Below are positions 21,029 to 25,739 of a stretch of 64,000 nt of DNA, in pieces. The position numbers were made by a program, and so were the translations under genes. Below the pieces are notes generated by a model. That model searched no databases and was not told the origin of the DNA. It saw nothing but the letters and a program-made list of their open reading frames with translations. This stretch comes from Malaciobacter marinus (lineage in GTDB: Bacteria; Campylobacterota; Campylobacteria; Campylobacterales; Arcobacteraceae), in the NCBI RefSeq assembly GCF_003544855.1, contig NZ_CP032101.1, positions 310,001 to 374,000 of the forward strand, written 5' to 3'. Position 1 is the stretch's first letter; the number at the start of each line of letters is the position of its first letter.

Positions 21029-21176
21029 GCACGAATAAATTCGAGCTTCCTGTTGGAAATGTGAATTCATCACATCAAGGATTATTTGGGCACGAATAAA
21101 TTCGAGCTTCCTGTTTGGAAATGCGAATTCATTCGCATCAAAGATTGCTTAGGTACGAATAAATTCTGGCTTCCTG
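21029..21176. repeat. REPIN-like tandem repeat, cluster 1
   Basis: Units start at 21029 (61 bases), 21090 (63 bases) and 21153 (partial, 24 bases). Each full unit has a first imperfect palindrome (GCACGAATAAATTCGAGC), TTCC-n(4-5)-GGAA, and a second palindrome. The second is ATGTGA..TCACAT (21059-21075) in unit 1 and ATGCGA..TCGCAT (21121-21138) in unit 2, a compensatory T:A to C:G change. The two halves of a unit are diverged inverted copies of each other (15 of 22 positions). The cluster fills most of the 201-base gap between the nuclease and permease genes. Confidence 0.85.
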
Positions 21177-25589: not shown

Positions 25590-25739
25590 AAGTTTTGATT
25601 TTAGCACGAATAAATTCGAGCTTCCGATTTTGGAGATGCGAATTTATTCGCATTTGGAAGTTTTGATTTTTTGTGGGGGATTGGATTTTTGCACGAATAA
25701 ATTCGAGCTTCCTTGGTGTTGGGTATGAATGAATTTATG
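25590..25739. repeat. REPIN-like repeat, cluster 2
   Basis: Two further copies of the repeat begin at 25604 and 25691. The first is complete (second palindrome ATGCGAATTTATTCGCAT) and is flanked by a 13-base direct repeat AAGTTTTGATTTT at 25590-25602 and 25658-25670. In the second copy the right half is degenerate. The cluster occupies the centre of the 312-base gene-free stretch 25499-25810. The rest of that stretch holds only the cytochrome leader and the porin terminator. Confidence 0.85.

Follow-up and report, generated by a model that had tools for sequence, protein, structure and literature searches.

BIME-like arrays of a GGAR-footed REP family in Malaciobacter marinus and their probable spread by a Y1 transposase

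The window, meaning the whole 64,000-nucleotide stretch analyzed here, corresponds to bases 310001–374000 of the closed, one-contig M. marinus chromosome (2,917,098 bases; 2.92 Mb), which starts at dnaA, and contains two arrays of short palindromic repeats. The first, at 21029–21176, has a PD-(D/E)XK nuclease gene on one side and a tryptophan/tyrosine permease gene on the other, and comprises five palindromic units of alternating orientation; on the plus strand these read A' (21029–21050), B (21055–21075), A' (21090–21111), B (21117–21138) and a degenerate A' (21155–21174). The second, A'-B-A' at 25604–25712, is located between a gene encoding a cytochrome c-type protein and one encoding a major outer membrane protein of the Campylobacter type. 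The individual features are as follows.

21029–21050, minus strand: REP half of type A, with GGAA foot, 8-bp stem, T.T third pair and 2-nt loop (R1 match, 36.4 bits)
21055–21075, plus strand: REP half of type B, a 21-nt variant with GGAA foot and stem ATGTGA/TCACAT; read from the sequence, a hairpin in the array fold, missed by the 22-nt model
21090–21111, minus strand: REP half of type A (R1 match, 36.4 bits)
21117–21138, plus strand: REP half of type B, with GGAA foot and stem ATGCGAAT/ATTCGCAT (R1 match, 33.2 bits)
21155–21174, minus strand: degenerate REP half of type A (R1 match, 16.9 bits, E 0.096; core with two mismatches)
21055–21111, plus strand: REPIN-type doublet 1, GGAA-B-linker-A'-TTCC, tags outside; B-A' gap of 13 nt with B scored as 22 nt, or 14 nt with the 21-nt B
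21117–21174, plus strand: REPIN-type doublet 2, arranged as doublet 1; B-A' gap of 16 nt
25604–25625, minus strand: second array, REP half of type A (R1 match, 36.4 bits)
25632–25653, plus strand: second array, REP half of type B with GGAG foot (R1 match, 31.7 bits)
25691–25712, minus strand: second array, REP half of type A (R1 match, 36.4 bits)

The initial annotation described the first array as units of 61–63 bases, and the measured direct-repeat spacings are 61 and 63 bases. The compensatory stem change that it reported is also present: the stem of unit 1 is ATGTGA/TCACAT and that of unit 2 ATGCGA/TCGCAT. The former has lost one base, leaving a 6-bp stem and a 5-nt loop, and the latter has 8 bp and a 2-nt loop. 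A chance palindrome is ruled out, as the 19-base core (≤3 mismatches) occurs five times in the window against an expectation of 0.00 from shuffling. Folded as single-stranded DNA, the array gives a z-score of −4.27, with none of 200 shuffles as good; folded as RNA, it gives −2.23, with five of 200 as good.

Searching the whole genome with a covariance model of the unit gives 48 copies at E≤0.01 and 56 at E≤10. These occupy 13 sites: two in the window, ten at 873–924 kb, and a solo copy at 2,280 kb. Confinement of the repeats to the two window clusters is ruled out, as the core has 42 genome-wide matches with ≤3 mismatches, compared with one for the reversed-pattern control; the annotation had proposed such a genome-wide count. 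It had also anticipated an excess of paired inverted copies, and 38 of 43 neighboring copies alternate in orientation, a BIME-type feature that none of 2000 within-array shuffles reproduces. This count covers 54 of the 56 model hits plus two copies read by eye, the two weakest hits, which overlap B copies on the opposite strand, being left out. The REPIN arrangement, in which a B copy is followed across a spacer by an A' copy with the tags outside, occurs 19 times, with gaps of 4–37 nt. The copies listed at 868–928 kb are intergenic, with none inside open reading frames of at least 130 aa.

The repeat unit is a hairpin of ~22 nt with a 5' foot GGA[A/G], an 8-bp stem and a 2-nt loop. The foot is GGAA, GGAG or, in three copies, GGAC in all 47 copies listed, and in every one of these it differs from the canonical REP tag GT[A/G]G, which is absent from the stem foot here. 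Two types of half are distinguished by the third stem pair, as read from the copy list: type A, GGAAGC[G/T]CGAATTYATTCGTGC, has G.T or T.T at this position in 26 of 26 copies, whereas in type B it is Watson-Crick in 21 of 21.

Covariation between the stem arms shows that the hairpin has been kept. In an alignment of both types, holding 31 of the 47 listed copies (26 distinct), the covariation score is 0.423 compared with 0.150 after shuffling, and in a type B alignment of 30 copies from two species (16 distinct) it is 0.356 compared with 0.145; none of 500 shuffles, which leave relatedness among the copies in place, reaches the observed value in either case. Sliding the partner column by 1–3 positions lowers the score to ≤0.116 in both alignments. 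Two of the five measures, the number of pairs with two-sided changes and that of further pair types, do not rise above the shuffles. The hairpin is kept, as the earlier argument for selection on its structure supposed, but such changes could also arise through template-switch correction without selection. When the lagging strand is made, a template switch inside a palindrome can copy one arm onto the other, and the changes in both arms do come jointly and as whole blocks, such as CCCC/GGGG and ACTC/GAGT. An unselected origin of this kind is possible, if somewhat improbable: automatic correction should erase the flawed third pair, yet the T.T or G.T persists in all type A copies listed. This lasting flaw is reminiscent of a bulge in the stem that is required by E. 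coli TnpA-REP (PMC8266576).

A search of the genome with PF01797 identifies two genes. The first, at 876,326–876,841, is intact, encodes a RAYT of 171 aa, and lies within the 876-kb repeat group, flanked on both sides by arrays of the same repeats, with gaps of 13 and 23 bp between arrays and gene. A Y1_Tnp gene flanked by the same element, predicted from the window alone, therefore exists on the same chromosome. The protein scores 45.5 bits against PF01797 (cut-off 23), and the alignment reveals the motifs NHIH (HUH), WQ and YIYNNP. Of the two NCBIfam families listed, the REP_Tyr_transpos equivalog is the better match at 70.5 bits, below its cut-off of 80 bits, which is a curated naming threshold and not a biological feature. 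The closest PDB entry by profile search is 4er8 (E 2e-11). The same entry, E. coli TnpA-REP with a REP hairpin, is closest to the predicted fold (Z 15.0, with an rmsd of 2.3 Å over 133 residues); the transposases of IS608 and ISDra2 score lower, at Z 11.8–13.2. The fold was modeled on the M. halophilus protein, which is 96% identical, with a mean pLDDT of 87.2.

The second Y1 transposase gene (1882934–1883269) is ruled out as the mover of the A/B repeats by its own, different flanking repeat, AGGGTCAGGTGATAACGATAAC, which surrounds it in inverted copies and has more copies nearby. Its product of 257 aa carries NHYH and a weak HTH_23 match, and looks like a transposase of the TIRYT or subclass 2.1 type.

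Comparison of six Malaciobacter species, including M. marinus, shows the RAYT in two, the other being M. halophilus DSM 18005. Arrays are found in the same two species (48 copies in M. marinus and 26 in M. halophilus), and the remaining four have neither. The arrays differ between species in several ways. First, both window arrays are missing in all five congeners, with the flanks on both sides in place in four of five for the first array and in five of five for the second. Second, the RAYT and its flanking arrays form an added piece between a DNA-ligase gene and a gene that, from its sequence, we take to be gmhB; this piece is absent in four of four RAYT-less congeners, in three of which the two genes are just 10–26 bp apart. 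Third, the 911-kb array of M. marinus is cleanly missing in M. halophilus, and three others, at 913, 920 and 924 kb, have different lengths in the two. The arrays thus vary in presence among Malaciobacter species, and in length between the two that have them.

These comparisons also bear on a possible fossil origin, in which a single horizontal transfer of a surface-polysaccharide region brought in the RAYT and its REPs, whose copies have changed from then on solely through tandem duplication and recombination, the window arrays stemming from recombination or an old event. Length variation requires no transposase, all arrays share one orientation, and ten of the 13 sites surround a species-variable block at ~887–911 kb. 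However, the window arrays lie 545 kb away, between ordinary genes whose order is conserved in the congeners and where other imported DNA was not seen, the 911-kb array has been added at a site that is otherwise clean, and the cognate repeat family of another Arcobacteraceae genus (G006, below) is scattered over its chromosome. We consider immobile fossils unlikely.

The block itself (887000–911200) is bracketed by REP arrays and aligns poorly between M. marinus and M. halophilus. Sugar-nucleotide epimerase and oxidoreductase genes were identified among four proteins tested, and we read it as a surface-polysaccharide block; the arrays might supply homology for its exchange.

Every A copy is on the minus strand and every B copy on the plus strand, regardless of the direction of the neighboring genes. 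The single array orientation is seen across gene pairs of the types ++ (6), −− (3), −+ (2) and +− (1), a tally in which the linked arrays are non-independent and the 2,280-kb solo copy is unscored. All arrays except this solo are in one chromosome half; the solo lies in the other and runs in the opposite sense with respect to the fork, with origin and terminus placed from sampled GC skew and dnaA only. The constancy across gene pairs argues against the repeats being transcription terminators or mRNA-stabilizing hairpins that were copied for that role and are linked to the RAYT only incidentally. T runs do follow several of the B hairpins close to the RAYT, e.g., GGGGCTTTTTT, and five arrays start 16, 15, 17, 2 and 5 bp past the end of a plus-strand gene on their left, as terminators might; but no T run follows the B copies in the window, and co-occurrence with a RAYT is unexpected of terminators. 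A role as terminators is thus highly unlikely to explain the arrays.

A RAYT 53% identical to that of M. marinus is encoded in G006, and the repeats near it (L086, G006:C1:1655001–1667000) combine a different stem with a GGAA foot; they too come in two types and carry their tags on the outside, the hairpins being GGAACGCCAG...CTGGTG and GGAACCCCAG...CTGGGC. Exact GGAAC cores number 52 of B type and 70 of A type over the whole chromosome, compared with two and zero for reversed controls. This pair of RAYT and repeats is an independent replicate of the GGAA-tagged dimorphic system. The G006 hairpins lie inside open frames of at least 80 aa in 19 of 101 cases, spurious frames included, and the M. 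marinus repeat model has a single hit in this genome, at 434 kb. Outside the RAYT region, G006 orientation is 25 forward to 10 reverse below 1.25 Mb and 1 to 12 above (p 1.4e-4, the cut being chosen post hoc), and 21:10 and 5:12 with a 1.12-Mb cut (p 0.016). Orientation also tracks gene direction (++ 1:9, −− 14:6), such that replication and transcription are confounded. The fork-relative polarity of the A/B naming is opposite in M. marinus and G006, where the correspondence of A and B is one of labels and implies no homology.

Taken together, the window cluster is very probably an array of BIME type, formed by a REP family that is being spread, or was until recently, by the Y1 (HUH) transposase whose gene lies at 876 kb. 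This interpretation is supported by the position of the RAYT inside the repeat group of the same chromosome, its Y1 motifs and predicted fold, its co-occurrence with the arrays, the empty array sites in congeners, the covarying type B stem together with the constant third-pair difference between the types, and the GGAAC family that accompanies the related RAYT of G006. Counting against it are the sub-threshold NCBIfam score, a tag other than GT[A/G]G, the few places occupied and stray model hits in genomes where this RAYT clade was not found. The initial annotation's REPIN-like element moved by a RAYT is accordingly sustained as a REP-type element with a cognate RAYT, whereas its movement is deduced, its tag is GGA[A/G] and its copies are few and regional.

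Mobility, guide use and any replication coupling are inferences. The RAYT would bind single-stranded DNA at the extruded hairpin and the GGAR foot and cut at a site selected by the foot, and the B-linker-A' doublet would then be moved into another single-stranded intergenic site, where arrays may grow and shrink through tandem duplication. By analogy with the cross-complementarity model published for the GTAG guide (PMC8266576), the predicted cut would fall at TT for GGAA and at CT for GGAG.

The system is of a known type, from which it departs in three respects: the tag, the restriction of the copies to the neighborhood of the RAYT and the uniform orientation of the arrays. Most REPs are spread over the genome, and the tags of Pseudomonas REPINs are on the outside of the doublet, as in M. 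marinus. According to PMC3116915, these REPINs (GI–GIII) are likewise inverted-REP doublets that form tandem clusters beside the RAYT, and doublets with compensatory changes are already known; unlike them, M. marinus has dimorphic halves, short linkers (4–37 nt) and copies confined to a few places. Dimorphic REPs and BIMEs on the flanks of RAYT genes have also been described (PMC2817692). In E. coli, BIME-2 (REP Y and Z2) and TnpA-REP (yafM; subclass 2.2 or group 2) likewise combine two alternating REP types, arrays on both sides of the transposase gene and an imperfect stem (PMC2817692 and PMC8266576), and the two proteins probably share a fold, judging from the model. The E. coli foot is GTAG in contrast to GGA[A/G], its motifs are DHLH/WE/YIHYNP rather than NHIH/WQ/YIYNNP, and, unlike BIME-2, the M. 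marinus family has ~50 copies at few places. Dimorphic, low-copy and regional, the M. marinus arrays are closer to the E. coli BIME than to the symmetric Pseudomonas REPINs.

By the published motif table of Quentin et al. 2018, the RAYT fits TnpA-Y1 subclass 2.4 (NH[IFV]H/WQ/YIxNNP), although the REPs given there for this subclass have the canonical GT[A/G]G, unlike those of M. marinus. The same source gives REPs without GT[A/G]G for subclass 2.6 and class 3; subclass 2.6 recalls M. marinus in this respect but has YIH[QN]NP and is listed for Bacteroidetes. The GTAG-23 repeats of T. roseum are likewise clustered at few loci (PMC3733652), but have a GTAG tag and belong to another phylum. The string 'GGAA' is absent from the main texts of PMC3733652, PMC8266576 and PMC2817692, whose motif lists are in supplements. 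Judged by title and abstract, no paper on RAYTs or REPs in Arcobacter, Malaciobacter, Campylobacterota or Epsilonproteobacteria was found, so the GGAR family looks undescribed within the literature searched.

A complete RAYT/REP system of the kind best studied in Gammaproteobacteria is thereby identified in Arcobacteraceae. The way in which REPs move is known by deduction rather than by observation. The M. marinus system is a small set of ~50 copies with one cognate RAYT and sister species that have neither, its foot, with two positions unlike those of GTAG, predicts a different cut site, and G006 offers a relative with a different stem and the same foot; together these make guide choice and RAYT-REP pairing testable by in vitro cutting. 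A bolder, and quite unlikely, extension is that a distinct Campylobacterota RAYT lineage, with a GGAR guide, dimorphic halves of which one always has a non-Watson-Crick third pair, and insertion in one fork-relative orientation and preferentially near its own gene, has left arrays that record strand-specific, cis-biased and replication-coupled transposition.

Of 80 loci that carry RAYT relatives, 40 have repeated hairpins at most 500 bp from the gene, as detected by script; set A4 comprises 18 of the 80, leaving out L110 (broken frame) and L141 (split match). Among the 40, feet read by eye are GGAA at four loci (L106, L107, L113 and L114) and GTAG at at least 15, chiefly in more distant relatives, indicating that the foot differs between RAYT lineages. 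Stray hits of the M. marinus model, in genomes where this RAYT clade was not found, number one in G020 and two in G029; G046, which also has one, is outside the family and beyond the scope of the RAYT search. The G020 hit, from another genus of the family, is a 22-nt type B REP, GGAACCTCGAATTCATTCGAGG (L041 682–703), apparently in a coding frame and identical to the M. marinus copy at 885,677. A further foot variant is present in G026, where a 52%-identical RAYT (L085 5402–6015) is flanked by hairpins, GGGGATACGACTTCAGTCGTAT, with a foot of the GGGG type. A Sulfurimonas RAYT relative (L111 3689–4582) has dense alternating ACCGACTTCAGTCGGT and ACCGGTTAAAACCGGT hairpins on both sides, with an apparent GTAAC foot.
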